Assembly (NCBI GenBank): GCA_961205875.1
Contig: OY540812.1
Coordinates: 17,670,001 to 17,734,000 of the forward strand
Source: Sialis fuliginosa
Lineage: Eukaryota > Arthropoda > Insecta > Megaloptera > Sialidae
Direction of reading: 5' to 3'
Length of the DNA: 64,000 bases
Below, piece by piece: positions 2,179 to 60,966 of this stretch (its first letter is position 1; every line of letters begins with the position of its first letter). Below the pieces are notes generated by a model. The model was not told where the DNA came from and ran no database searches. It worked only from the letters and a program-made list of their open reading frames with translations. The translations under genes were made by a program, and so were the position numbers.

Positions 2179-4171
2179 TTATTGTCTTGTCACAAAAATT
2201 TGAATATCTTTTTGATTTTGTTTTTGTTCAGATATTTCGCTAATTATATCGGTCACTTTTGGAATGACCTCAGCACTTCTATAATATCTGAATCCTGGAT
2301 ATCCTCCATATCCATAATGGCCATAGTAGGGTCTGTGAGGTCTGTATCTTCTTCGGTGATGATGATCATCATCGTCATCATCGTCCCAATCGTCATCAAA
2401 ATGGTCATCCCAATCATCATGATCAGGCTACAAAAAATAAACTCGGTTAATATCTTCTTATGTATTATATATTGTATAAATACGTAGTTAATAATTATAT
2501 AATATAGCGACGTTAAATATATTAAATAACAAATGAATTGTCTAAACGTCAAATTTATCAAAGATAAAGTTTTCGCAAGCTTTCGATTCACAGAATCATC
2601 GTCAGGTTTTCAGAAGGAAATAAAATAAAAGACAGATGTTGTAATCTCTAATATATGCTATACATGAATCATCAACATATTTTGTTTCCTTCTGAAAGCC
2701 TGACGATGATTCTGTGAATCGAAAGTTTGCGAGTACTTTTTCTAGTTAGTAATTATATATCAGACGTTGCCAATAAGTCTATTGCGATCTACCAGTTGAT
2801 TGCTGCTTAATTTTTGTCGACCGCAATCAATTTTAAATAATATTAATTTTTAAAATAAATTACATTTAGTTCTAACAATTTTCTTTAAGTCTTGCAACGA
2901 CATTCAGGAGAATTTAGATAACGTCACATTTGAACTGATATGTGCATATTATTATAGTAGTTAACACTTCAAACAGGAGTTGACTAAACGTATTTGTTGA
3001 GAAACCTAATGAATAATTTCAATTTTTAGTGTTCCGTACCAAAATCAGAAGGAGGAACATTTATGTAATCAAAAATGTGTCTGTCTGTTTGTCTGTCACA
3101 TAATCGATTGACCTAGAAATCTGAGATTTGGCATAATTATAGTTAAAAGTGGACCAGTAGCAGAACAGTTGTAAAATAAAATTGATGTTTTTGTCGTTTT
3201 TTTGTGTGTGTAGGGGAGGGGGGGGGGGTAAATGTGTTACCAATTTTTTTTATTCAATCCCAGATAGTGGAGTATTAAATGAAAGCTGACAATTAAAGCT
3301 ATTTGATTATATAAATGTTTTGTCAATATTAAAAACTTGTTTTCTTAAAAAAAAAAATAGTAAAAATATTTTAAAAGAACATTATTAGTATTCATCACAC
3401 TTGGAGTCATTTGCGTTTTAATAGGCTATTAATCATAACTTATAGTGGTTCTTAAATTTGTAAATACTTGAAAAAATTGAAATCTTTAAATTTTTGATAT
3501 AATAATCCAAAAAATTGAAAAACTATATGGTACGGGGCACTAGTGCGGGAGGCTCGACTAGTACACAATTTTTTTATTAATTAATTAAAACTTTAATTGG
3601 GAGTATACCAGTACTGTACTTAAGGGGAAGATTTAGGGGTTGGACCCTACCCCGAATTTGTCAATATATATAATATAATTAACAATTGTGATACAAAAAA
3701 TAAATAAAAATTACATATAATTACAAAAAAATATTTTCTCCCGAATATTTTTTTGGGTGCGCAACTGAACTATACGATATGTCATACATGAAAGAAACTA
3801 CTTGATTTTTTAGATTAATTTCGTATATTATTCAAATAAATAGTTGTTTCAAGAAATGGCTTTTCATTTTATTTCCATTCTTCTTAGCGTCTCTCATTTA
3901 GGCACATTGTCGTTCCTCTTAATATTATTATTCGAAAATAAAATAAAAATTATACATATAACGTGAGATTATTCATATTCATTTTTATGACAAAATTGCA
4001 TTTATGTTGTAATGTAAAATATGTAAATTTCAGTTTTCTGCTACTGTATTATTGTTACAATAAAAATAAATAAAAAATAAATAAAACAATTCATACCTCT
4101 GGAAGTGGAGCAGATTCTACCAGAACCATTAAAGATACTATTAAGAAGATCCATGTTATTTTAAATGCCAT
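2179..4171 (-). CDS. Gene A: secreted Asp/His-rich, Tyr/Gly-rich peptide
   Basis: The coding sequence is complement(join(2179..2427,4097..4171)), 107 residues. Exon 1 (25 codons) runs from the ATG at 4171 and encodes a hydrophobic signal peptide ending near VLVES, followed by APLPE. The donor is GTATGA and the acceptor TTTTTTGTAG; the intron is phase 0. Exon 2 encodes an acidic stretch with seven consecutive Asp (residues 40-46), then HHHRRR, a Tyr/Gly/Pro/His-rich section (about 53-75), and an amphipathic, Gln/Lys-containing tail (about 78-107). There are no cysteines. The exon layout and the PLP motif after the signal peptide match genes B and C, so I infer a paralogous family. The Asp/His block could bind metal ions; the function is otherwise unknown. 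The 1.7-kb intron is filled with inserted repeats. Splice sites were read by eye and no transcript was seen. Confidence 0.8.
2581..2605 (-). ncRNA. Hammerhead-like ribozyme core
   Basis: On the minus strand CTGACGA is followed by T, a GATTC/GAATC stem with a TGT loop, and GAAA. CTGANGA and GAAA around a short helix II are the conserved boxes of hammerhead ribozymes, which are known in Penelope-like retroelements. The T between the box and the stem departs from the canonical core. Helices I and III were not convincingly resolved, so activity is unknown. Confidence 0.45.
2700..2724 (+). ncRNA. Hammerhead-like ribozyme core, inverted copy
   Basis: The same core as at 2581-2605 but on the plus strand: CTGACGA, T, the GATTC-TGT-GAATC hairpin and GAAA. 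It is an exact copy over the 25 core bases, while the flanks differ slightly (GTTTGCG here, GCTTGCG in the other). Confidence 0.45.
3028..3543. mobile_element. TIR element of the GTTCCGTACC group
   Basis: The left end AGTGTTCCGTACC is inverted at the right end as GGTACGGGGCACT (11 of 13 match). The interior has a GTCTGTCTGTTTGTCTGTC tract and a G-run, as in many short insect repeats ending in GGTTCCGTA. No open frame. It sits in the intron of gene A. A related end pair is seen at 57708-58432. Confidence 0.55.
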
Positions 4172-4233
4172 TGTTATCGATAGATAAAAAAAAACTTAAA
4201 ATTGTCTTGCAGTGTTAGTTGATTCGTTACTAT

Positions 4234-4265
4234 TGACGAGGAAATAAAATTTGTTAGCTAATATA
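4234..4265 (-). promoter_or_regulatory. Putative gene A promoter
   Basis: On the minus strand TATATT begins at 4265, and a CGTCAATAG initiator-like sequence has its A at 4234, 31 nt downstream. The start codon follows 63 nt later. A GGAAATTCC word, resembling an NF-kB half-site pair, is at about 4280-4288. The TATA match is imperfect. Confidence 0.35.
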
Positions 4266-4424
4266 GTTTTGTTTTAAGGAATTTCCACCAATAAAAATAC
4301 AACCACGTGATTAGAATATAAAAAAACTGGAAATAAATATTGATGTTTCTATGATAATTTAAACCTATTTTTTTTCAACAAAAACAGAATTCTTTTAGTC
4401 ACCTTGTAATGATCTTGATACATT

Positions 4425-4602
4425 ACACAGCTCCACAAAAAAAATTTTTGTATGCGGGGATCTGGGGTTGATGGGATGTATGATTATGGGGTTTTGTTTG
4501 AGTTTTGATTAAATTTTATTACTTTTTTATTTTTTGAGGTTAGGTTAGGTCAGGTTGGGTCAGATCTCCTCAAACAAAATATTTTTTTTTGTGGAGCTGT
4601 GT
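4425..4602. mobile_element. Small TIR MITE (ACACAGCTCCAC ends)
   Basis: ACACAGCTCCACAAAAAAAA at the left is inverted at the right end as TTTTTTTTGTGGAGCTGTGT. The element is about 178 bp with TTA on both sides as a possible target duplication. It contains a GGTTAGGTTAGGTCAGG tract that resembles, but is not, a telomeric TTAGG array. No coding capacity. Confidence 0.7.
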
Positions 4603-5619
4603 TATTATTATGAAAATAATAAAAAATGTTTTTCGTAACATTTATAGTAACTCAGCTCTTTATAAACGTTATCTAAAGAAATTTCTTTCAATATTAAATG
4701 ACCATGCCCTGATTATTTCGGACAATATCTCACCCCTTCTAATATCAAGGTGTGGTAAAACAAGTGTTTGAAAGGTATACATTTTGTGAAAAGATAGACA
4801 GTTTTTATAGGTACTAATATACGTTTACAATTAATAGTACTGATATTTTATTCTATGTAATTGTGAGGTAGTTTAGTATCTGTACTCTAACTATGGCCCG
4901 CGATAAGTTTACATTCGTTATGTGATTATTTTTTAACTAACTTCAATACTTGTGCTTTTTTTATATGTAACTAAGCGGCTGAAGCTCGGTTAGAAATCGA
5001 TGTATGCCTATATTTTTTGTGTTATTGATAAAACATTGGAATTATTAAAATATTTTTTTCAATATAGATATCTACATAGTTATTATCTTTTTATGTTGTG
5101 ATAACTTAAAAAATATCACGATTGTTGATGTAAAATCATTTTTCCATGTTGATAACATTGAATGTTTTTATTTAATTAAGTATTATATTTTCTTATACAT
5201 TAATAATGGTTTTGTAAACAATTGACCGAATTTGTGTTTACTGACATTTCATCTCAAAAAATAAAATTCATATATAAGACTAATATTCGCAATAGTACTT
5301 GTTCTAAAACTTAAAATTATTTCACTCAATGAATCACATATTTGTTGTTTGTGCAGCATCTGTTTTACGCAGCAACTTTTGATATCATAGAACAAATATA
5401 ATTAAATATTTGACATGTTTTATTTTATTTGTATATTAAGATAAAATGAAACAACAAATTACTTAATATATGTATACAATAGTATACATATGTCTCTTAT
5501 AATAGAAAGATATTTTTTTAGATGAACGGTTAGTTAACATAATAATGTGGTCATAATAGGTATAATGAAATGTAAGGTAGAATATAAAAATAAAAAGTAA
5601 AAATAATATATAAATATGT
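4603..5619. other. Gene-free AT-rich spacer between genes A and B
   Basis: No exon or clear repeat was recognised. The sequence is composed of A/T tracts throughout. Confidence 0.4.
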
Positions 5620-5625
5620 TTTATT
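5620..5625 (-). terminator. Possible poly(A) signal of gene B
   Basis: This is the AATAAA I noticed on the minus strand beyond the gene B stop, about 215 nt downstream. It gives a plausible 3' UTR length; cleavage site not determined. Confidence 0.35.
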
Positions 5626-5838
5626 ATGAAAATGAACACTTTTAACATATGTACATCCCTATGAATAATCAAACTGATTATATCAATATATCACAACAAT
5701 GAGGTTCCTTTTACTGTTTTACAAATCAAAATTGAATACTGTACATTTTATAAGAATATGAAAATAAAAATACTGCCGGATATGTAAAACTAATGCAGTA
5801 ACAATAATAATTGGCAAGAATTCGCGGCCAGTTCTTGT

Positions 5839-6340
5839 TTATCCATCGTGATGGTGGTGGTGGTGTCCATGATGTCCATGATGTCCATGGCCTCCATAAC
5901 CTCCATAACCTCCATATCCTCCGTAACCTCCTCCGAATCCTCCGTAACCTCCTCCGAATCCTCCGAAACCACCTCCATAACCGCCATATCCTCCATATCC
6001 GCCGTATCCTCCATAACCTCCGCCATGCTATAAAAAATAATTTTTATTGGCTGTGATATCGGTAAAAACTTTTGACTATATTAATAATAATTAACCTTCG
6101 TAATTAGAATTTTTAAATCGAAAAAAGTTGTAAAATAATATATAATATTAAAACAATACTTAAAATAAAAATTTTTATCGTCAAAAATAGCGAAAATTTA
6201 ATTTAATCACATTGGCAACAATAGAATTCATAATAATAATAAAATAACAATAAAATACTTACATGTGGATCAGGAAGAGGTGAGCTGTAGGCAACAGCTA
6301 CCATCATGAGGACAGCCAACAATACGATTCCTTTGAACAT
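5839..6340 (-). CDS. Gene B: secreted GGY-repeat, histidine-tailed peptide
   Basis: The coding sequence is complement(join(5839..6027,6263..6340)), 88 residues. Exon 1 starts at the ATG at 6340 and encodes MFKGIVLLAVLMMVAVAYSS, a clear signal peptide, followed by PLPDPH. The donor is GTAAGT, the acceptor TTTTTTATAG, and the 235-nt intron is phase 0. Exon 2 encodes GGY/GGF repeats (residues 28-72) and a tail of His with Gly (73-86) ending in Asp-Gly. There are no cysteines. Glycine-rich, histidine-rich secreted peptides in arthropods include cuticle components and antimicrobial peptides that bind metals; which applies is not decidable here. TATA box, initiator and two Relish-type sites lie upstream. 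The signal peptide, intron position and PLP motif match genes A and C. Confidence 0.9.
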
Positions 6341-6397
6341 GTTTGTTGATTGTTTGTTTGTTTCCACAAGAATACTTGAGATGACTTGGGTTGTTAC

Positions 6398-6433
6398 TGA
6401 TGTTAACCACTAGCGATGGCCTGTTTATATATA
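6398..6433 (-). promoter_or_regulatory. Gene B core promoter (TATA and initiator)
   Basis: TATATAAA runs from 6431 to 6424 on the minus strand. An ATCAGT arthropod initiator has its A at 6398, 33 nt downstream, giving a 5' UTR of about 58 nt before the ATG at 6340. Spacing and motifs agree well with a TATA-type insect promoter. Confidence 0.7.
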
Positions 6434-6540
6434 CATACATCTCGGGTCAACAAAAAACGGGTGAGATATTTAGAAACACCACGGCCTAGTAAAAAGGTAG
6501 AGGAAATTACAGAAAATTAGCAATACCTCTTTGTTTACTT

Positions 6541-6549
6541 GTGATTCCC
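6541..6549 (-). promoter_or_regulatory. Relish/NF-kB-type site upstream of gene B
   Basis: GGGAATCAC on the minus strand fits the Relish consensus GGGAHNYMY exactly. It lies about 145 nt upstream of the predicted transcription start. Confidence 0.4.
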
Positions 6550-6622
6550 CTTCAGTTTCACACGAATGAATTCTCTCATGGTAGACGCCCTCTCGCGGTG
6601 GTCGCTTGATTTACTTGACCTT

Positions 6623-6631
6623 GGGATTCAC
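6623..6631 (+). promoter_or_regulatory. Second Relish/NF-kB-type site upstream of gene B
   Basis: GGGATTCAC on the plus strand also fits GGGAHNYMY and lies about 225 nt upstream of the predicted start, in opposite orientation to the first site. Confidence 0.4.
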
Positions 6632-7790
6632 ATATAGGATTGTTATACTACATTTTTAATTTTATTGCCTATTTTTCCTTCTGTAACCGCTTTAAACATT
6701 TGTGTACAATCCGATGTAAACATTGGCTTTGTAATGTCATGTATAGTAGAGATTAGGTGATACGAACATTTATAAAATTAAATGGGTTATTAAACTTTGT
6801 GTATTTAAATTACATTTTTGTTATTTATAATCCATCGAAAATTCTTAATTGAAATGTAATGCAATTAAGTACAGAGGAAATTAGAATTTTATCACATCCA
6901 TAGGTAGGAGGTTGATAATGTACCGATCATATCAGGAAAGTATAGAAATGGTTATTTTCACTTATGTAAACAGAAAAGTTACTACTTTAATTTAGTTTCT
7001 TATCGTCGAAAGTGACATTATAAAATATATAAATAAAAATACCATAATTTACAATCCTACAATATATCTAAAAAAAAGTTTAATTGTAAAATAATACAAA
7101 ATAAAACAAAATATGTTTGATGTAAATATAATATCAAAAGTTTCAAATTTAGGGTCATATTTCAGGAGTACTACTGTATGTAATAATCGTATGTTGCAAC
7201 GTCAATTTCGAAGGTATTAATGGAAAAACAAGGTGATACGTGTTTTGAGGTAGTTTTTGGGAATTTCCAACTATTAACGTACTACATTATAATTAGCACA
7301 TACATACATGTCTATTCTTTCAATAACGTATGATTCATCTCTTACATTGATTTGTATAAAGTGTTAATGGATTGTATATGATTTTATCGAATGACAGTTG
7401 GTGATTTATTTTAGAAATACACAAATGAAGTGAGTGCGTTTTTATATGTTGATTAATATGAAAATCAACTTTTTTTATTGTAATCATAAAATAATTTTGT
7501 AAATAATAGTTCGCAGTAATAAATATTAACAATAACAATAATAGGTAATTGATGAAGATGAATTTATTTAAAAAATATTTTTTTGCTATTAGTTTGGCAC
7601 GTTTAGGGTAAATATTAGATGATAGCTTTTAAATTTCTTTGCTATTTTATTTAATCTCCAACTTAACATTAGTCGACTCTAGGCAAAATAAGAAATAAGT
7701 ATAAAATGTACATATACTTATAGATCATAAAAAGTTTCTTATAATAATAATAACAAATACAAACGGAATTTAGATTTAGAATAAACTGAT
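6632..7790. other. Gene-free AT-rich spacer
   Basis: Upstream flank of gene B. Nothing beyond A/T-rich sequence was recognised. Confidence 0.4.
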
Positions 7791-7920
7791 AACGAAGTAA
7801 ACAGACAATTAATAATAGTCATAATGATATAAAGAGATAGAAGTAATATATATATAAAGCTTTTTTGAAATAGAATCATAGGATAGAAAGAAGCTATGTG
7901 ATTATTTCTAGAAAAAAAAT
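7791..7920 (+). repeat. Dispersed repeat, second copy at 11767-11930
   Basis: Shared words in the same order: CAGACAATTAATAATA or its near match, GAGATAGAAGT, TATAAAGCTT, GGATAGAA, AAGCTATGTGATTATTTCT. The copy at 11.8 kb has about 30 extra bases in its middle. No terminal repeats or coding capacity seen. Confidence 0.6.
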
Positions 7921-8251
7921 TGTCTCTGATTTTAAGTGATTTTAAATGTCCATTTGGTCTCTCTGTTTCTGGTCAAAACAAGTGCTTTTTGTTCTGCGTC
8001 TTTATGCTAGTGAATCTGTCCTCTGAAAACTTGTTAAATACATACATAATTCGTGAAATAACTAAACGGAATTTAATGAAAATTGGTTTGTGAGCTAGGT
8101 CTGGCAGCAGTTGGTTATAATAAAAATTATCAAAATCAGGTGTGCATTATTTTTATATAAAAAAAGTCATCCAACTTTTGTAGTTAAATATCCCCTTGCA
8201 ATGATATATTTTCCAAAAGTACTGTGCCATATTTTTTCATTTAGTTATAGA

Positions 8252-8902
8252 TAAAACATCTGCCAAGCAATACACAATGCTTCATCGTGCTAAATTCCCT
8301 AAAGGTAGTTGATTATTGAACAATTTAAATAAAAACCGATAAAGTGTCAGGTAAATTGCCAAGCATTGGTTAACCATTTAATTTTTTTACAATTTTACTA
8401 AAAAAATTAGTTCGAAAATTTTCTTAAGACGCACCTGATTATATTTTCGTATATATATATGCAAACGTCAAAATGACATTTAATGAGAAAAATCTTTGTA
8501 AGGGAATATTTTACAAAAAATATTATAGGAAGTTCAATGTACTACAAAAAATATTCTATATAGATATCTTAAAAAAAATATTTTGGGATGTCACCCTTAC
8601 ACTTTACACACGATTTTGATGATTTTTAAATGAGACCGTCCTCAAGCTAGACTCAAACATCCAACCGAATTTCATTAATATCGGATCAGTGATTCATGAG
8701 TTATGAGACAAGAATTCACTCAACATACAGACACATAGACAAAAAGACACACATACAGACAGACACGGAACGAAAAGTGTTTATCTTGACCTGAAACGGA
8801 AAGATCAATTTAAAATTTTGAAATCGGAGAACAATTTTCTTCTCATTTTAAAACGATCACAAAGTTCTGGTATCTTCGATATTGCGAGGAAGCAAAATTA
8901 AT
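8252..8902 (+). repeat. Longest copy of a dispersed repeat family
   Basis: It starts with CATCTGCCAAG and ends with CTTCGATATTGCGAGGAAGCAA. Shorter copies are at 20248-20470 and 34051-34222 with the same first and last segments. This copy has about 430 extra bases in the middle, including a tract of ACATACAGACA words. Either the short copies are internally deleted or this one carries an insertion. No open frame of note. Confidence 0.65.
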
Positions 8903-8999
8903 TTTAAGAAAATAATGCATCTGAGTAGTTTAATATTTGACACATATACATACATACGTTATTATTCATTCACATGCTAGTACGTCATAACCTTTATTT

Positions 9000-9725
9000 T
9001 TAGGTTTCTGTAGAAAACTAGGAAACCTTATAGTTTCGCCATGTCCGTCTGTCCGACCGTCCTCAAAATTTTTAGACCGATTAAGATGAAATTTGCAATA
9101 CGGACGAAGACTGAAAACCCAGAAACAGGAAAAACATTTTTTTGGACCTCCTTTCCATAGACTGAAAAGTATATTAAAATTTTTTTTTCACTTAATCCAT
9201 TAAGTGGGATGTCTTTAGATAGGTCTCCTAAAATGCAATAAAAAATGTTATATGACATTTTGATTTTAACCCTTCAGTCACGATATATTTGTGTTCAAAG
9301 TTGTGATCAGAGCGTCTCCCCCCTTAATTTCTAAACTATCTATTCAAAAAATCTGAAAAAAATTCAGAATGTAGCTTTTAATTATTACTTCCAGTGAAAA
9401 TTATATTGGACCCCCCTCCCATAGACTGAAAGGTGTACTCAAATTTGTTTTTACTTACCCCATTGAGTGGGGTATCTTTAAATAGGTCTCCTAAAATGCA
9501 ACAAAAAATGTTATATGACCTTTTGATTTTAACCCTTCAGTCACGATATATTTGCATTTAAATGTCATTATCAGAGCGTACCCTCCTCCCTTCTACTTTC
9601 TAAACAATCGATGCAAAAAATCCAAAAAAAATTTAGAATGTAGCTTTTAGTTAGTACTTTCAATGAAAATTATAACGAACACTGTAGATAGAATAGTTTA
9701 TGAAAAAAAATTAAATAACTTGTTT
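9000..9725. repeat. Repeat with two tandem units of about 264 bp
   Basis: After a GTCCGTCTGTCCGACCGTCC tract, a unit containing CATAGACTGAAA, TAGGTCTCCTAAAATGCAA, ATGTTATATGAC and TTTTAACCCTTCAGTCACG appears at about 9141-9404 and again at 9405-9675. The left end AGGTTTCTGTAGAAAA resembles GGTTCCGTA-ended insect repeats. Coding appears absent. Confidence 0.65.
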
Positions 9726-11034
9726 ATAAATCGTAATGACTACGAAAACCTATCATGTGCGTGCTCAACACGCACTTGGCCATTTTATTATTACTATTAT
9801 TGGTATATACATTTTACCACAAAATACTCTTAGCGCTAATCAGTTATCACTGTATTAGTATATTAAAATAAATAATTCAGATAAATATTTTCTACATGCT
9901 ATCATAAATGTCTTCTGAAGCCACTAAACGATTTGTCGATCACCGGATTAATATGATAATATCTAAGTTTTATCCTTATAGTTTACATTGAGAGATTCCT
10001 TTTGATAACAAAAAAACCTATAATTTCATATTCAAGATATTCATATCGAACTGAAAAAAGTTCTTGAGTTTTTGTACTAGAAGAAGATATTTACATATCG
10101 AAAAACATATTAAAATGTAAAATTCAATGTGTCTATATATTTGAATATCCATATATTAATTAATTTTATTCTAATACTAATGAAATTAAGTTGGGAAAAC
10201 CAAATAGATTTTGAATGGATTTATTACACCATTTAATATCAGACAAATAAAAAAAATATATCAATGATTGCGTCTTACTCACTTGAGATGCGTAACAGCG
10301 ACCAAACCAGTTTAAAAATTCTATTAAACTTTTTGCGGTTTCTAAGTAGTCAATCTAATATTCTCGATATTCAATTTTAATTAACCTTTATTTAAAATAG
10401 CACTGTTTAAAATTACATTAAATAATACGTTATGATTATAGATTTATAATACATCTGTTGTTACTATTGTAATATTTTTTTATGAAAATATAATTTACAT
10501 TTTATCTGAACTGTCTATAAGCCAAAACGGTTAAAAAGTTAAATTATTGGTTGGTCGTCTATGTTGCTGACCGATTGATTTAAAAAAAAATTATATTTTT
10601 ATTAAGAAATACAAATTATAAAAAATTACTAACATTTTTCAGAAATTCATTAGTTTATTATTGCGTGATATCTTATATTTCCAAAAACAAATAATTATAA
10701 AAAGTTGATTTTACTCATTTTTATATTTACATAGTAAAATCATTCAAAATTTTAAACGGCATATTTTATTTATATATAAAATAATAAAACGATATCTTAT
10801 ACCTATAGAGGTGGAAAACACTACTAATAGTATATACCTCTTTCGAAACATTCAAAATAAAAATAAATGCTTAAACTTACCGATTTAATATTGAAATAAA
10901 AGTATAGAGGCTTTACTGATACAATTTGTATCTAAGTACGTACTTGGTAAATATAAAAATAAAATTGGTCGTTACAAGCCTAAACAAATATTAAATAATC
11001 GAGTAATATTTATGATCATCGGTAAACATTTTAT
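9726..11034. other. Gene-free AT-rich spacer
   Basis: No exon, RNA gene or clear repeat was recognised. Confidence 0.4.
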
Positions 11035-11125
11035 CTTGGATCCTGGCTTCTGGGTGTAAGCCGCGTCGATTTAGTCGTGTTATTGGCCAACGTTGGCCGA
11101 TAACACGACGAGAAGCCAAGATACA
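11035..11125. repeat. Nested palindrome with a CG-rich core
   Basis: The inner 36 bases at 11074-11109 (GTCGTGTTAT, then GGCCAACGTTGGCC, then ATAACACGAC) form a nearly perfect palindrome with one mismatched pair. An outer pair, TATCTTGG..TGGCTTCT and AGAAGCCAAGATA, brackets it. The block is much richer in G+C than its surroundings. Confidence 0.75.
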
Positions 11126-14100
11126 TACTAACAATAAATCACCACGGAAGCCTCGAGACTTGTATAACATTTTATCTTACTTATAATATTAAAGATATAA
11201 AAATATGTTTTCATTTATTAGGAAAAATATGAAACAAATACTATTTATGTTTTTCGATACTTCTTTGGTTTTAGTACATTTGGCAACTGAGTGCTCACTG
11301 CTCACTCAAGTCAATATGATAATTTAAAAATATATTCTTATAAAGAAAGACAGTAAGATATTTATTCACATGAGTTAAAATATATATAATTTATCACACG
11401 TATTTTCTGCTAAAATAATTATCTTGATTAGCTTAAAGTACAATAACATGTTAATTATTATCTAATTAATATGTGTTTCAAAAATATACAATTAGAATTA
11501 AATTTTGTATTAAAATTTAAAACTAATTTAAAAAATACTGCGTTGGTAAAAACAACACAGTGATGGATATAATAGCCTTGCGTGGTCAGATTTATTTCAT
11601 TGTTAATAATTATAATTAGTGTTTACAACTAAAACAAGTTTTATTTTTAAACGTTTCGGTGCATATTCATTTATTAATATCTACCTGTGACTGTTTATTG
11701 TTCATATTTTATATATTATTTTTAGTTCATGGAATAAGTCAACATCAAAAGGTGTGTAAAAAAGCGACAACGAAGCAGACAAACAATTAATAATATTAAT
11801 GATAGAATGATATTAAGAGATAGAAGTTATAATATAAAGCTTATTTTGATATAGTATGTTCATTAGCTTTTGTTTCTTCCAATTTTCAAAGGATAGAAGA
11901 AAGCTATGTGATTATTTCTGAATTTTTTTTGGTTAACATCAAAAGGTATGCAAAAAAGCATTAATACATGTATAAATAAAAATTTATTGTAGATTTTTAA
12001 TTGAAAACTACTGAAGAAGTTGTATGATTTTTAAAAAATATAATTGAAAAAAAAATTCCTACATAATATTTTATTTTATTTTGTTTTTAAACTTACAAGT
12101 ATTGAATTAGTGTTAAGATTATTTTAAAATATATTATACGAGTACCTATATAATAATAAAAATATATTATGAGTTCTGTAGATATTTTGAAGAAAATAGA
12201 TCTTAATGTGGCTGAATATTAATAACCTGAAAAGTATGCATGGCTTACATCCTAATTCCTAATACTAGAAATCTCCTAAAATATTTTCTAAATAGTACAA
12301 ACGAGTATAATTGTAATATGTTGTTTTAAGTACCTATATCGATGGTTTTAGGGCATAACAAGATAACTGTAAAAATATGATTTTTCAAATTTTAAATAAA
12401 TACGGATACCATAGACAGAGCAAATGAAAAAACATACAAAATTAAATCGGTATAAGTGATTCTCAGATAATGGCCAAAATGTCAGTTATCATGTAATGAC
12501 TTATGTTCTAAGACCATTGATATATATATTTTATGTTAGTCTATTCTTAATATAAAACGCAAATTATTCGTATGTTTGAATTAAGAATATGACAAATGAA
12601 TTTAAAATAAAATAATTTAGAAATTATTTTTTTTTTATTTCAACCAAATAAATTATTACTTTAAAGAAAAAATCGTTAATTAAAACAATATTTAGTTTTG
12701 TTTGAATAGAAATTTTTACTTATAAAGGCAAACTTTTGATTAAATAATGCTAATAAGGCTTCTTATATCTCATCATTATTGAATTTACCTACATGAGAGA
12801 ATTATAAATTTTAAGAAAAAGTCATAATAATAATTTAAAAAAAATCATCTGGGAATGTCCATGTACTCCAAACACTGTATTGTTTTATATTAAAGGTATT
12901 CAATTACAACTTCCAGTGAACGGTAAAAAAAATTATGTATTATGTAAGGAAACAATTAGTTACTACTTGAACAATGCATATAATTCTACACATCATATCA
13001 GCAAGGTTGTCGATCGACATGATTCTCTTTTTTATTACATTGTTTATGATTTCCTTATATTGGATCATTGTTTCCAGGAATTAAGTTGTATTTTTTGACT
13101 GGGCGAGGTAGCATAATTATTTACAGTCCTATCTATTTTTCACTCAATTTGATTATATAAGTCATTCAACAATGTGATTGGAACACTTTTTTTTAGATAA
13201 GTGTTTTTCAGAAAATACAATATAAATAAAAAGTTCAGTAGTTCAAATCTTAACCAATAAATAAAAAACATATTTTTCTATTTGCTATTTAACTACATAT
13301 GAAATATGTAGTACATTTACAAAAAATAAATTTATCGACAGTTGAATAGTAAACTTTAATCCAGAATCAAATTCTAGCTAGTTATATGTATGTAATATGG
13401 GCTTCAGAAGTCGTTTGCCATCTTAAAGGTCTGAATCATTTATAACAGATTCGTAAATATTAAGAAAAACATTAACGATTATTTTTTTCTAGGGTGGAGT
13501 TTATATAGTTACATCATTTTAAATAAAAACACTAATATACGTCCATATCATTAATTAATTTTATATCAAATTTAACATATTTGAATACTAAAATTCGGAA
13601 AATCAAATATTTATTACCACAAAATTTACTTATACAATTAAAAAATATATTTAAGTACTATACTAGTAATAATAACTATTAACTAAGAGTACTTCTTTAT
13701 GTAGCAAATGAGTTCCAAAAGATCTATCTTTGCTTGGTACATGGAGAAATGATTTAAATATTATAATAATCAAATGGAAGTAGTCTACTAAGTTTGTGAT
13801 AAGCGAATTTCAATGAAAACTGGACGACCACTTCTGCATTTCACTGTACATGCGTTATATTCAGAAAAATAATACTTATTGATTTCCCATCCCTATTGAA
13901 ATACCTCACATAGATACCTATTCAATTTTTTCTGTTATGGTTCTTTTAATTTGTTAAAATAATATCATTTATACAATTTCGGTTTACAGCAAAATCATAA
14001 ATTTATATATGCACACCTATATTCAATTTTTTAGTATTGAAAAGCATAAAAGTAGGTAAGGTACTAACCCAGTCTTGGATCATATCCCAGTGTTGTTCTT

Positions 14101-14263
14101 GTTTACTTAAATGTACTAAATTAGAAATATTTGTTGACATTTGATTACTGCCATTACTGAATCATAAACTATAGTAATTAACTGTAAAATAGCGTAATTT
14201 GATGACAATCGGCCAATAAGTGTCAAAATGTTGGACATTTAAACTAATTGTTAGTTTAATCTA
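11126..14263. other. Gene-free AT-rich spacer
   Basis: Apart from the 11767-11930 copy of the repeat at 7791, nothing was recognised. Open frames in this stretch lack splice sites, composition or motifs that would support them. Confidence 0.4.
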
Positions 14264-15272
14264 TACCGGGTGTTCCAGACCACCCATCCCCCGTCCACTA
14301 TGTTTTATGCCTAAACTAATGAAGATAGAGTTTTATGATAAAACATTTACTATATATATCGACCCTAAAGAATTTCAGGAAAATATTTTCAACCCCCTAA
14401 AATTCCCCCTTGGGGGGTAGTTTGAGGGGTACATGCCCGTTTCTCAGCAAAATCAAATGGAACGGTGTATCCAAAAGTAAATAATTTTAAAGATCTTAAA
14501 AAAGTAAGAAACTTTTGTAAAAACAAATTTTTCATACATTCAATTGTTTAGAAAATATGGCGACTTGTTCCCAAATTTTACGGTTTTACTAAAAGTGCCC
14601 TAGTTTCGTTAAATATTAATGAAATTTTATTTTAAAATTTTTATTTGAAAGTAGAAATAACGAACTTTTTAATAATGTATGATTATTTGAGATTTGGATA
14701 ATTTAAAGTGTCATACGTGACATATCAAAAATTAAAAACTTCAAATGGGGTTAATTCAAAAATTTTAAATTTTCTTAACAAAAGTTGTTTATTTAAATAT
14801 ATTTTGTAAGATAAAGTATTAATTGATAAAGCATTCCATTTAAAATTTTTGAATTAACCCCATTTGAAGTTTTTAATTTTTGATATGTCATGTACATATG
14901 ACACTTTAAATTATTCAAATCTCAAATAGTCATACATCATTAAAAAGTTCGTTATTTCTACTTTCAAATAAAAATTTAAAATAAAATTTCATTAATATTT
15001 AACGAAACTAGAGCACTTTTAGTAAAACCGTATAATTTGGGAACAAGTCACTATATTTTCTAAACAATTGAATGTATGAAAATTTTTTTTTACAAAAGTT
15101 TCTTTTTTTATGATCTTTAAAATTATCTACTTTTAGATATACCGTTCCATTTGATTTTGCTGAGAAACGGGCATGTACCCCTCAAACCACCCCCCAAGGG
15201 GGACTTTTAGGAGGTTGAATATATTTTCCTGAAATTCTTTAGGGTCGATATATATATAGTAAACACTCGGTA
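14264..15272. mobile_element. Large foldback element, TA target site
   Basis: Two arms of about 430-500 bp are inverted copies around a 67-bp loop at 14771-14837. The ends are TACCGGGTG on the left and CACTCGGTA on the right, each next to TA, a target duplication typical of the Tc1/mariner superfamily. The left arm has about 80 bases (starting TTCCAGACC) that the right arm lacks, so the right arm has a deletion. The arms have diverged by scattered substitutions. No transposase is encoded. Confidence 0.85.
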
Positions 15273-15713
15273 TATGAATTATTCAATTATTATAGCATCT
15301 GCTTTTCATTGTTTCAAATTTTACGATTTTACTTTCTGACTTTTGTTTCGTAGTACTTATCATTTTGTAATCATTAGCAAGTGTGCATCACTGGGTACCA
15401 ATTACTTACTTTACTTTATTCATTACTGGAGAAAAAAAAATATAAATAAAATAAAAGGCTATAATTAAAAAAAATATTTGTGGACTTTGGTAATTAAATT
15501 GATTTAATTAAGAGGTACTTGTTTTATTAGTAACATGAGTTCATGATAATTACAAAAAAGAAAGCCTTGTTCTTAAAGGATCCATGACTGGTGCCAGTAC
15601 CTTATGTATGTAGGTACCTAATTTTTTGAAAACAATGTAATGTGAATTATTATAATATAAATAAAATAAATATCAATATTTAATTTAATTTAATTACAAA
15701 AATATAAACAAAG
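15273..15713. other. AT-rich spacer before gene C
   Basis: Nothing recognised apart from A/T tracts. Confidence 0.4.
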
Positions 15714-15719
15714 TTTAAT
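15714..15719 (-). terminator. Possible poly(A) signal of gene C
   Basis: ATTAAA on the minus strand about 90 nt past the stop. AATAAA matches also occur further on, near 15660. Confidence 0.3.
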
Positions 15720-15806
15720 ATGTACATATTAATAACAATTAGTTACTATACACGAATATCATTCCTAAAACTCGTAAATAAGCGTTATTTGTATCGATGT
15801 TGTTCT

Positions 15807-16694
15807 TTATCCGTGATATCCATGATGGTGATGGTGGTGACCATGATGATGATGGTGGCCATACCCTCCATATCCATGTCCATGTCCATGTCCATGTCCA
15901 TGTCCATACCCTCCATAACCTCCATACCCTCCATGCCCTCCGTAACCTCCGTAACCTCCTCCGAAACCTCCGAAACCTCCAAAACCTCCTCCGAATCCAC
16001 CAAATCCGAACTGAAAAAATACAAACAAAAATATTTAAAAATCTTTTTTTTACACCTATAGTATTCGAACCATTTGTTGAATATTTTAATATCCTTAAGG
16101 ATAATCTCTTTTTGTGAAGATAAAACGCCGAAAAAAAATTATCAAATGAACAACTAAAGGGCGTTAAAGAAAATTACTTTCAGCTTTCCAAATATGCCCT
16201 TAATTTTTTTTATGATTATTTGTTTGCTAGTTATAAGCGCTCAAAGTGAAACGTGACTTTTGCAAATTAAAGAAAAAAATTTGATCAAACAAAAACCCTT
16301 AATTTGATTTGGCCAAAAAAATTTCTAAAGTCCTGTAGAACCTCTCAAAATTGATATACATTTTTGATTTTTTTTCGGCATTTCATCTTCACAAAAAGAT
16401 ATTATCCTTAAGGATATAAAATTTTCAACAAATGATTCAAAAACTGTTTTTTATTTAAACTTTTCTTCGACCATTTTTCGCGGAAATACAGCCATTCAAA
16501 AATACCCAAAAATATTGAAAAAATTTAATGATCCTTTAATTTTGGAGTTTAGTGTATGTAGTGAATATATTTTTCACGCACTTTTAAGATGAATCAATTC
16601 CATAATTAATATTAAACCTTACCTGTGGTCTAGGTAGAGCACAGACAACAGATAAACATAGGATTACACAGATACAAAAGAAAACTCCTTTCAT
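15807..16694 (-). CDS. Gene C: secreted GGF/GGY-repeat, His-rich peptide
   Basis: The coding sequence is complement(join(15807..16010,16623..16694)), 91 residues. Exon 1 from the ATG at 16694 encodes MKGVFFCICVILCLSVVCA, a signal peptide, then LPRPQ. The donor is GTAAGG, the acceptor TTTTTTTCAG, and the 612-nt intron is phase 0. Exon 2 encodes GGF repeats, then GGY repeats, five consecutive HG pairs (about residues 60-69) and a His block (76-88) ending HGYHG. The mature part has no cysteine. The order Gly-rich then His-rich and the intron position match gene B; the Leu-Pro motif after the signal peptide is shared with A and B. A structural cuticle role or a metal-binding antimicrobial role are both possible. 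The intron carries a foldback repeat. Confidence 0.9.
16066..16438. repeat. Foldback repeat in the gene C intron
   Basis: Left arm 16066-16139 and right arm about 16368-16438 are inverted copies, including ATCCTTAAGGAT and TTTTTGTGAAGAT with its partner ATCTTCACAAAAA. It would form a stem of about 70 bp in the pre-mRNA. Confidence 0.7.
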
Positions 16695-16766
16695 TTTTAT
16701 TCGAATTTGGTTCTTAATAATTTATAAATCCAAGCAAAATTCTTCAAAACGCGAGTACAGCAAAAC

Positions 16767-16801
16767 TGACCTATCATGACATATTATTTTTAGCTTTTAT
16801 A
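16767..16801 (-). promoter_or_regulatory. Gene C core promoter (TATA and initiator)
   Basis: TATAAAAG runs from 16801 on the minus strand. GGTCAGTTTT has its initiator A at 16767, 34 nt downstream, leaving a 5' UTR of about 72 nt. Confidence 0.65.
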
Positions 16802-26256: not shown

Positions 26257-26564
26257 CATAAAAGTTTTAAAAAGACAAAATGTAAGTATTTGAGTGACAA
26301 TAATCCTAGAAAATTGGATGTTTACAAATTAAAAAAATCATGATAAACATGATGAGTACATAAAAAAAAACAATAAAATATCAAATATTCAGTGAAAAAA
26401 AAGTAAATACAAAATATACCAATTTGTTTTTATTTATTTATTTATTTACATGATATCCATCATAAAGTCATATATTTTCTCACGACATGTATATTAATAT
26501 ATAAAAACAATAAAACAACGCTTTAAATTCGTAGAAACAATTGTTTATCAAAACTACAAAAACA

Positions 26565-36910: not shown

Positions 36911-37270
36911 ACAGATAGCGGCGTAAGAAACAACTATTGCTTTATCTGGCGTAGCACTACGAATTTTGCAACGGGCTGTCGGTATTGTGTTAGAATTAGT
37001 ATATTGAAATAAAATAGATAATATAACATAAATTTATGTGAAAATATAGCTACGCCGGAAACTATTAATGCTTATCCGGCGTAGCACTTCGAATTTTGTA
37101 AGGGGGTGTAGGTATTGTGTTAGAATTAGTATATTGAAATAAAATAAATAATATAACATAAATTGATGTGAAAATATAGCTACGCCAAAACTATTATTGC
37201 TTTATCAAGCGTAGCACCGCGAATTTTATAATGGATTATCGATATTGTGAATTGGACTAAAATAGAATAT
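36911..37270. repeat. Three tandem copies of a 130-bp unit with hairpin
   Basis: GCGTAGCAC occurs at 36949, 37079 and 37209, exactly 130 bp apart, and the intervening sequence is highly similar. In the middle copy GCTACGCCGGA and TCCGGCGTAGC form an 11-bp perfect stem with a 15-nt loop. The outer copies have partly lost the pairing. The third copy is the most diverged. Confidence 0.9.
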
Positions 37271-44536: not shown

Positions 44537-45298
44537 ACAAATTAAGAGTGACCTATTTTTAATTAATAATATCGAAAAAAGTAATCATTTAGTGGGCCTT
44601 ATTTTAACTGTCAAATCTTTTGTTAACCTTAAATTTTTCGTGAAAATGGAGCGATGACCGATTGATCGTAAAATTGCTTGTGTACCTAGAGCATTTTATT
44701 AGAACCAATTCAATTATTAAGAGGTGGTTCCGACAACAATTTAATGTTCTCGTGGCTCCAAGTCGCAAGATAATTCTAAGATGGGTTGAAAAATATCGCC
44801 GCACAGGTTCATTTGAAGATATTAAACCTACGGAGAGGAAAAACAACAAAGAGTTGAAGCAAATTCTAATCAATCCGTGAGATGATTATCTCAACAAGTA
44901 GGAATTTTAAGTGAGTCAGTAAGTACACTTTTGAAGAAAGATTTACACTTTCATTCATATAAATGGCAAAAAGCTCAAATTTTTTTCCAAATGACCGAAA
45001 CATACTAGATTTCAGTCATTGGGTTTTGAATAATAGTAACTAATAGTAACTGTATGGTGCGGATTATGCTTAACTGGAATATTAATACGTTCATAATAAA
45101 AGTGTTACAAACTTCTGAGACTGAATAATTGAATTGGTTCTAAATAAAATGCTTTACACAGACAATTCTTCGATCAAGCGGTCACCGCTCCATTTTCACG
45201 AAAACTTTAAGGTTAACAAAATATTTGACAGTTTAAATTAGGCACACTAAGTGATTTTTTTTTTGATATTAATTAAAAATATATCACTCTTAATTTGT
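44537..45298 (+). mobile_element. Deleted element with DUF4817-type remnant
   Basis: ACAAATTAAGAGTGA at the left end is inverted at the right end as TCACTCTTAATTTGT. Further inward the arms match for about 180 bp, including CGTGAAAATGGAGCG with CGCTCCATTTTCACG and ACCAATTCAATTATT with AATAATTGAATTGGTT. The interior keeps only the N-terminal part of a transposon-borne helix-turn-helix protein; most of the element is missing. Confidence 0.75.
44662..44880 (+). pseudogene. Fragment of a DUF4817-type helix-turn-helix protein
   Basis: The frame encodes 72 residues with KRWFRQQFNVLVAPSRKIIL and then RWVEKYRRTGSFEDIKP. The pattern F..F......P....I..W...Y..TGS is that of DUF4817 domains, found at the start of proteins of some insect DNA transposons. 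The catalytic part is absent because the frame stops at 44880 and the right arm of the element follows soon after. The frame lies partly in the left inverted arm, so the right arm carries an inverted copy of its first part. Confidence 0.6.
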
Positions 45299-53021: not shown

Positions 53022-54295
53022 ATGAATATTTAATGATAATTTATTTTACCTGTTATTCAAATATGAAATGGAAATTAATTGTTATATCAACTTTTTACAA
53101 TATAGTTATTTTTAATAATTGCTATACTGAAATTATTTTTTTATTTTGCACCATTCTGATAACAAAGGACATGATTGACTTATGTTAAGGTTATTGAACT
53201 AGCATCTCTTTAGTTGTGAACTATCCGTTTTTTTTAATAAAAAAAAAGATTTAATTCCGAAAAAAAACAGTTTGATACGATTCGGGTATGTGGTGAGAGA
53301 GAGACAGGTGATGTTTTTGTTGTTTTTGTATTTTTAACAATAATAATGATATGAATATACAATGATATTAGACAGTATATTGTATATTATAGTATAGTAA
53401 AGGGATTGTCTGCATCTTGAGTTTGGAGGGATGTAGACTGGCGTGGTGGACGGCGTCGGCGTGGTGAGCGGGTCAGGACACGACGTTCGAGGGCGGACCT
53501 GGAGGTAGCGTCCGGGGCGAATCGGGCTGGCGACGTGCCCTGGACAGACCGGGCAGGTGGCGTCCGTGGGTGGATCGTCGACGGGGGCGACGGCGGAAGC
53601 GTCGATGTGTTGAACGTCCGTGAGCGGGCCTGGAGGCGATGTCCGAGGGCGGACCTGCAGATAGCGTCCGAGAGCGGCGGTGCGGGCGTCGGCGTCGTAG
53701 GAGACGGCAAGAGCTGACCTGGTGGTGACATCCGTGAGCGGCGTAGCCTGGTGTCGGAAACCCACCAGGGAAGTTTTAATGGATATGACTGTGACTCGTA
53801 ATAAGTCGATCGAGACCTCCCAAGGGAGTTCTGATTTGTTTTCAAAATACGTCCAGTTTTTATACCAATATTTCGTGGCTTCTCAAGAGCGCGTAGGGTG
53901 CACGGGTTGTACGGCTGGTGACGTCACGATCGGTGTACGTACTGGTTCCAGGAAAGAGAAATCACCCGCTCTGCTCAAGGTTGACAGAAATGGGCTGTGT
54001 TTGTGCATTCCCAATACCCCTTAACACAACAAGTGTATACATCTGCGTAGGTCAAATGTTCGTTAGGAATTTTTTTATGATAGTACAATATACAAATGAA
54101 TATTTAATGATAATTTATTTTACCTGTTATTCAAATATGAAATGGAAATTAATTGTTATATCAACTTTTTGCAATACAGTTATTTTTAATAATTGCTATA
54201 CTGAAATTATTTTTTTATTTTGCACCATTCTGATAACAAAGAACATGATTGACTTATGTTAAGGTTATTGACCTAGCATTTCTTTAGTTGTGAAC
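53022..54295. mobile_element. GC-rich insertion between 200-bp direct repeats
   Basis: The first 200 bp (53022-53221) and last 200 bp (54096-54295) are direct copies with about five differences. Between them are 874 bp, of which 53400-53760 are very GC-rich with diverged repeats of a GGACCTGGAGGTAGCGTCCG-type unit. On the minus strand TATAAAAACTGGACG at about 53868 is followed after 30-35 nt by an ATCAGA initiator-like word, and TGTTAAGGGGTATTGGGAA near 54029 resembles the start of an insect retrotransposon LTR. The interior may therefore be a solo LTR in minus orientation in a site that was duplicated, or the direct repeats may be the terminal repeats of a small element. Proline/arginine-rich frames in this block follow from its base composition. 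Confidence 0.55.
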
Positions 54296-60237: not shown

Positions 60238-60966
60238 TTAATTATTTAAAATTGTGTTGTAAATAGTAGATAATGTGGATATGTCAGTTTTCTTGTTAAT
60301 TGTATTATTGTTTCTTTTTATGTGTAACATTTCGGAAATGTAACGTTTAGCTTTATGTTTTTCATTATCTAAAATTTTAGTTTGTATATAATCAAAAATA
60401 TGCCCTGTACTATTTGTATGTACTGCTAATGCTGTGGATGTTGGTTTTAATCTTGTATCTGATTTATGTTGTGTTATTCTATTGATAAGTTTTTGTGATG
60501 TATTACCTACGTAAATAGTGTTGCAACCCCCACACGGTATACTGTATACCAAATTTGATTTCTTAAAAATGTCTGTTTTTGGTTTAAGTTTTGTGTAGTT
60601 GTTTATGTTTTTATTGTAAGTTTTAAATACAGTTTTTATGTTGTACTTATTTAAAGTGTTTTTTATTAAATTAGATGTTTTATTTATGTAAGGGATTGTA
60701 ATGTATTGTGTTGGTGTTGTATTAGAATTGTTATTATTATTTTTAACCGTGTTGTATAATAAGTGAACTCTTTTTGTTATACATTGTTTAATTAAATTAA
60801 TTGGATAGTTATTGTTAAAAAATGCTGTTTTTATTTTGTTTAAATTTTCTTGTCTGAATTGTGGATGTGATAGTTTTAGTGCTCTGTCTATGGTATTGTT
60901 TAAAATATTAATTTTTATGTGTTGTGGATGATTGGAAAAATAATTAATATATATATTTCCTCTTCT
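60238..60966 (-). pseudogene. Penelope-like polyprotein, C-terminal part with GIY-YIG domain
   Basis: The frame is open from 60966 to a TAA at 60238, 242 residues, without a start codon at its head. The first 138 residues, with RALKLSHPQFRQENL, ITKRVHLLYNT and YITIPYINKTSNLIKNTL, correspond to the region between reverse transcriptase and endonuclease. Residues about 139-170 carry the endonuclease motif: IPCGGC, IYVG at 151-154, then Arg 163 and His 167. The two cysteines before IYVG are typical of the Penelope group. The frame has no internal stop, so the decay is mostly the 5' truncation. The inverted repeat begins at once beyond its 5' end. Confidence 0.85.

Follow-up and report, generated by a model that had tools for sequence, protein, structure and literature searches.

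We analysed a window of 64,000 nucleotides (nt) of Sialis fuliginosa (Megaloptera, Sialidae; assembly GCA_961205875.1, contig OY540812.1, positions 17,670,001 to 17,734,000 of the forward strand), in which three small genes, here called A, B and C, lie on the minus strand between positions 2179 and 16694 of the window. Our preferred reading, held with moderate confidence, is that B and C are a related pair encoding small secreted cuticle-type structural peptides, and that A, a neighbour built on the same exon plan and with no shown relationship to the pair, encodes a secreted peptide of low complexity. That all three are genes for secreted low-complexity peptides with a common exon plan is supported by their predicted structures, by chance controls and by the composition of their products.

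Structure of the three genes

As the initial annotation had proposed, each of the three minus-strand genes follows one plan, consisting of a signal exon, a phase-0 intron near a Leu-Pro motif and a single low-complexity exon; the signal exons are hydrophobic, and the introns have GT and AG ends. Gene A (4171-2179) is composed of exon 1 at 4097..4171 (signal peptide MAFKITWIFLIVSLMVLVESAPLPE), an intron of 1669 nt at 2428..4096, and exon 2 at 2179..2427, the 82 residues of which comprise an Asp/His block, an Arg run, a Tyr-rich stretch and then a tail of ordinary composition. Gene B (6340-5839) has exon 1 at 6263..6340 (MFKGIVLLAVLMMVAVAYSSPLPDPH), an intron of 235 nt at 6028..6262, and exon 2 at 5839..6027, which codes for 62 residues (58% Gly) arranged as GGY/GGF repeats followed by GHH repeats and a six-His run. 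In gene C (16694-15807), exon 1 at 16623..16694 (MKGVFFCICVILCLSVVCALPRPQ) is separated by an intron of 612 nt (16011..16622) from exon 2 at 15807..16010, in which GGF, then GGY repeats, (GH)5 and a His-rich tail make up 67 residues (52% Gly, 27% His). The predicted proteins are 107, 88 and 91 residues long for A, B and C, respectively.

The splice donors are GAG|GTATGA in A, CAT|GTAAGT in B and CAG|GTAAGG in C, the acceptors are preceded by T-rich tracts, and the intron interrupts the frame one codon downstream of Leu-Pro in A and three codons downstream in B and C. Reading through without splicing would lead to a stop after 26, 45 and 36 residues in A, B and C, respectively. In all three genes the G+C content of exon 2 exceeds that of the preceding intron (37 versus 27% in A, 53 versus 17% in B, 51 versus 25% in C). 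Polyadenylation-type signals were found past the stop codons, with AATAAA at 17 nt in A and 214 nt in B, and ATTAAA at 88 nt and AATAAA at 279 nt in C. Judged as sequence, these predicted models with their exact coordinates look real. A small signal exon with one intron is a common plan in small secreted insect genes. Among 24 differentially expressed cuticle genes described for the honeybee, two exons were present in 8 and a small first exon in 14 (PMC3766229).

Both strands of the window were scanned for signal exons, defined as ATG, a hydrophobic core, LP and a splice donor, the signal peptides being judged by this hydrophobic-core scan rather than by a dedicated predictor. Exactly three matches were obtained, namely the first exons of A, B and C, all in phase 0; two matches in total, one of them in phase 0, arose in 20 second-order Markov copies of the window. 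A second scan, aimed at GHYDF-rich stretches, returned six matches in the window and one in all 20 controls; the three highest were exon 2 of A, B and C (GHYDF shares 0.77, 1.0 and 1.0), and the others were the antisense strands of B and C (0.6 and 0.7) and a stretch at 26331-26420 (0.6). Since the rules of these scans were drawn up with the genes already in view, the results are support and not a blind test.

Core promoter candidates were found on the minus strand before two of the genes: TATATA with TCAGT before B (6396..6433, TCAGT starting 60 nt upstream of the ATG) and TATAAAAG with TCAGT before C (16765..16801, TCAGT starting 75 nt upstream of the ATG). The underlying pattern, TATAWA-N18-30-TCAGT, occurred 10 times in the window against 4.07 expected, a count reached by none of 100 shuffles, and two of the 10 matches are those before B and C on the correct strand. 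The same pattern scan of the window gave no match before gene A.

Foldbacks lie in and between the genes. The intron of A contains one at 2562-2743 (66-nt arms at 2562-2627 and 2678-2743, 91% complementary) and that of C one at 16085-16421 (55-nt arms at 16085-16139 and 16367-16421, 93%). Between B and C, the stretch 14351-15256 forms a large foldback, the arms of which are nested in four pairs (57 to 153 nt, 92-98% complementary), and resembles a transposable element of the foldback or miniature type. A role of the intron and intergenic foldbacks as part of the gene system was considered and rejected; they are taken as repeats.

Relationship of B and C, and position of A

The three genes had been proposed to form a tandem family that shares a scaffold by descent. 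This is supported for B and C, which resemble each other in exon 2 more than composition and repeat periodicity account for, with a weak likeness in exon 1 as well; it is not supported for A, which shares the plan and no detectable sequence similarity. The alignment of the second exons of B and C scored 133 points, a score reached by none of 500 codon shuffles (maximum 79), and when whole repeat units were shuffled, the observed score was reached by 2 of 1000 at the DNA level and 12 of 1000 at the protein level. An ungapped stretch of 102 nt shows 80% identity. The likeness of the first exons is weak (4 of 200 shuffles reached the score), and the 400 nt upstream of B and C showed no similarity (77 of 200).

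Comparison of A with B and C, respectively, revealed no similarity in exon 1 (110 and 86 of 200 shuffles reached the score) or in the upstream region (80 and 186 of 200). The scores of exon 2 of A were hardly ever reached by base shuffles (0 and 1 of 200), yet often by codon shuffles (152 and 129 of 500) and unit shuffles (124 and 169 of 1000), so that the likeness of this exon to B or C stays within codon make-up. Because the second exons of B and C pass these shuffles while that of A fails the codon and unit shuffles, B and C are probably sister genes and A is treated as a neighbour with a matching exon plan, for which common ancestry with the pair is neither shown nor excluded.

Differences between repeat units also fell unevenly over the codon. 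At a period of 9, the counts at first, second and third codon positions were 13, 12 and 28 in B and 26, 22 and 35 in C, third positions being the most variable, and those in A were 53, 39 and 41 with no third-position excess. The excess in B and C is as expected if a protein repeat is kept by selection, and unequal exchange could shape it too.

Composition and possible roles of the peptides

The mature parts, counted from the intron onward, are free of Cys (0 of 82 residues in A, 0 of 62 in B, 0 of 67 in C), as had been stated earlier. The description of B as a GGY peptide was likewise correct, but incomplete, as B has GGF too. Besides Gly, the mature part of B contains 12 His (19%), 10 Tyr and 3 Phe, and that of C contains 18 His (27%), 8 Tyr and 6 Phe; Lys and Arg are absent from both, aromatic residues amount to 21% in each, and His runs reach six. 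GG[FYWH]GG motifs number 13 in B and 9 in C, and the peptides end in HHHHHHDG and HHHHHHGYHG, respectively. The mature part of A has 20 acidic and 11 basic residues, 7 His and 8 Tyr. Computed charges of A, B and C were −8.4, −0.2 and +1.3 at pH 7, and −2.9, +8.1 and +13.5 at pH 5.5.

Database searches assigned none of the three to a known family. Pfam gave no family up to E 1 for A, B or C, and NCBIfam none for B or C; the NCBIfam matches of A, MgtR (E 0.048) and ZrgA (E 0.92), were rejected as far under the cut-offs. Three further searches covered A only, not B or C. The PDB sequence search returned 8 sequences up to E 1, of which the best was a designed protein, SAKe6FE (E 0.0011), and these were judged to be low-complexity chance matches; tblastn in phage records gave no match; and of 10 pattern matches in viral contigs none was confirmed. 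A literature search, judged by titles and the beginnings of abstracts, did not list the locus.

Gene anatomy and composition can be read directly from the DNA, and from them we infer secretion and a cross-linked structural use. Cleavage of the signal peptide would take place close to the Ala/Ser-Pro-Leu-Pro junction. The Gly-Gly-Tyr/Phe part would be disordered or turn-forming and could pack via its aromatic rings, and the Tyr residues of its GGY units might be oxidised by tyrosinase or laccase to 3,4-dihydroxyphenylalanine (DOPA) and di-DOPA links. Quinones of N-acetyldopamine (NADA) or N-β-alanyldopamine (NBAD) may attack the His-rich tail, or the tail may bind Zn or Cu, for which His runs offer plausible chemistry, and the peptide would thus be fixed in a hardening extracellular matrix. 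In the weakest part of the proposal, A, acidic with His and Arg, would be a possible matrix partner of opposite charge.

Published work on cuticle lends support to this proposal. Silkworm CPG1 carries many GGY repeats, the Tyr of which is joined to di-DOPA by tyrosinase (PMC2542385), and CPG proteins are characterised by multiple GGYGG or GGxGG repeats (PMC10138643). His-rich cuticle proteins with 6-45% His are described as cross-linked by laccase2 with NADA or NBAD (PMC8062583), and TcCP30 as a low-complexity cuticle protein of Glu, His, Arg and Gly that is cross-linked by laccase2 (PMC4440208). Signs of cuticle proteins named for the honeybee are a Gly-rich composition, GGY, a signal peptide and a Cys-free mature part (PMC3766229).

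Several points weigh against a cuticle assignment. A passage on CPG proteins records them from Lepidoptera only (PMC10138643); no R&R or other domain was found in A, B or C by the Pfam search; A is devoid of GG-aromatic-GG repeats; the GGY features of B and C recur in nematode antimicrobial peptides; and a perfect kappa-B-like site, GGGAATTTCC, lies 919 nt upstream of the B ATG. The FTZ-F1-type site 276 nt upstream of the same ATG is no strong sign, being one of four YCAAGGYCR matches in the window (0.97 expected; four were reached by 1 of 100 shuffles). The other counts in the window were four matches to GGGRNNYYCC at three places (1.20 expected), six to GGGRAYYYYY (2.63 expected) and 18 to the ecdysone-type palindrome with two mismatches (15.79 expected), and taken together these motif counts do not decide between cuticle and immunity.

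A tentative alternative, which we consider possible though not probable, assigns B and C to the GGY type of antimicrobial, perhaps antifungal, peptides, like caenacins/NLPs and CNC-like peptides; the His tails of B and C would then become charged when the pH is low, or bind zinc. CNC-4 is Gly-rich and kills bacteria, its GGYG repeat being of importance for this activity, and Drosophila CNC-like GGY/GGW peptides, one of them induced by fungal infection, have been reported (PMC8181894, PMC3409374). The four features of a candidate defence peptide named in these papers, namely fewer than 100 residues, a signal peptide, simple sequence and a homologue nearby, are all present in B (88 residues) and C (91 residues), and A at 107 residues exceeds the length. 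Shepherin I, a Gly/His-rich plant peptide, is described as zinc-enhanced (PMC10698721), and the computed charge of B and C rises from about 0 and +1 at pH 7 to about +8 and +14 at pH 5.5. On the other hand, the mature peptides have no Lys or Arg and are near-neutral at pH 7, their His tails weigh against an antimicrobial function, and the caenacin C-terminus RPGLLGML is missing. Only unit composition is alike between B or C and the beetle peptides tenecin 3 and holotricin 3 (365 to 910 of 1000 shuffles reached the score), whose common tail is also missing. As for the kappa-B-like site upstream of B, it counts in favour, but none of the matches of this type lies within 900 nt of any start. The cuticle role is favoured in our analysis over the antimicrobial one.

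It is unlikely, in our estimate, that B and C are secreted structural peptides of another material, such as salivary sheath, silk, egg glue or shell, or mouthparts hardened by His and Zn. In the Nereis jaw, the main protein is Gly/His-rich (27 mol% His) and a binder of Zn, and for insect mandibles bonds between His and metal have been reported (PMC6477608). The composition of B and C fits such a material, but nothing separates this use from general cuticle. Somewhat speculatively, and with a low chance of being correct, B and C could also be regarded as two-block peptides of a lineage-restricted family, in which a self-assembling GGY/GGF part is combined with a metal- or quinone-binding His part; the whole peptide would harden a surface and, while soluble, defend it, and A would then be a fast-diverged acidic partner of opposite charge from the same ancestor. 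Finally, it is highly improbable that the frames are simple-sequence DNA with no genes behind them, since, although all three second exons are repetitive and tandem repeats were detected in B and C, a signal exon, splice sites and frame (and a core promoter in B and C) agree three times on one strand, and the controls rarely yield one element.

Should B and C be cuticle peptides, as we prefer, they would be compact natural units of an aromatic Gly repeat and a His tail, with which cuticle cross-linking could usefully be studied; an antimicrobial role would make them an insect case among the GGY peptides, the evolutionary age of which is called unclear in a passage of PMC3409374. Either kind is already known, so the weight of the finding is modest.

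Neighbouring sequence and comparison with known systems

No other gene was recognised between A, B and C or elsewhere in the window by Pfam scanning of open reading frames (ORFs), which short exons would escape. The scan covered 101 of the 108 ORFs of at least 62 residues, low-entropy ORFs being left out, and yielded at E 0.01 three names with one member each (DUF4817, Med5 and Pox_F15). Rfam and tRNA scans of the window gave no match. The DUF4817 ORF (44644-44877, plus strand; E 1.3e-06, above the curated cut-off) carries this helix-turn-helix domain and is probably a transposon remnant; DUF4817 and the TCAGT initiator are arthropod features. A 242-residue ORF at 60238-60966 (minus strand) had no significant Pfam match, and its C-terminal part seems, by its motif, to be the GIY-YIG endonuclease of a Penelope-like element. 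Repeats were observed at 9178-9674, where two stretches (122 nt with 89% and 81 nt with 86% identity) recur in tandem order at a spacing of about 265 nt, and at 36928-37249, a 130-nt tandem repeat of 2.5 copies. The stretch 53334-54024 is G+C-rich and has internal repeats; both of its strands carry long frames that overlap, and two of its minus-strand frames, scanned singly, matched no Pfam family.

With CPG proteins such as silkworm CPG1, B and C share a signal peptide, many GGY/GGx repeats and a Cys-free mature part, but the poly-His tail of B and C is not mentioned in the passages on CPG1, and A, having no GG[FYWH]GG motif, does not fit. The His-rich cuticular proteins BmorCPR152 and TcCP30, compared by description only, resemble B (19% His) and C (27%) in high His content and low complexity, and differ in that A, B and C are without an R&R domain. 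TcCP30, on the same basis, is also like A in its acidic, His and Arg make-up, but has Glu instead of Asp and a single-exon gene.

The caenacins/NLPs of nematodes and the CNC-like peptides of Drosophila agree with B and C in a length under 100 residues, a signal peptide, GGY repeats and an adjacent homologue, and the GGYG repeats typical of caenacins are present in both sequences; B and C differ in having His runs and in lacking the conserved RPGLLGML end described for caenacins (PMC8181894). Tenecin 3 and holotricin 3, antifungal peptides of beetles, are Gly- and His-rich and Cys-free as B and C are, but are only 1% and 6% aromatic, compared with 21%. Membership of B and C in this group was rejected: the pattern GGY[KQ]THG[HY], which we derived from the tails of the two beetle peptides, is absent, and similarity does not go beyond unit composition, whereas the beetle peptides match each other (2 of 1000 shuffles). 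The Nereis jaw protein, from an annelid and compared by description only, is Gly/His-rich like B and C.

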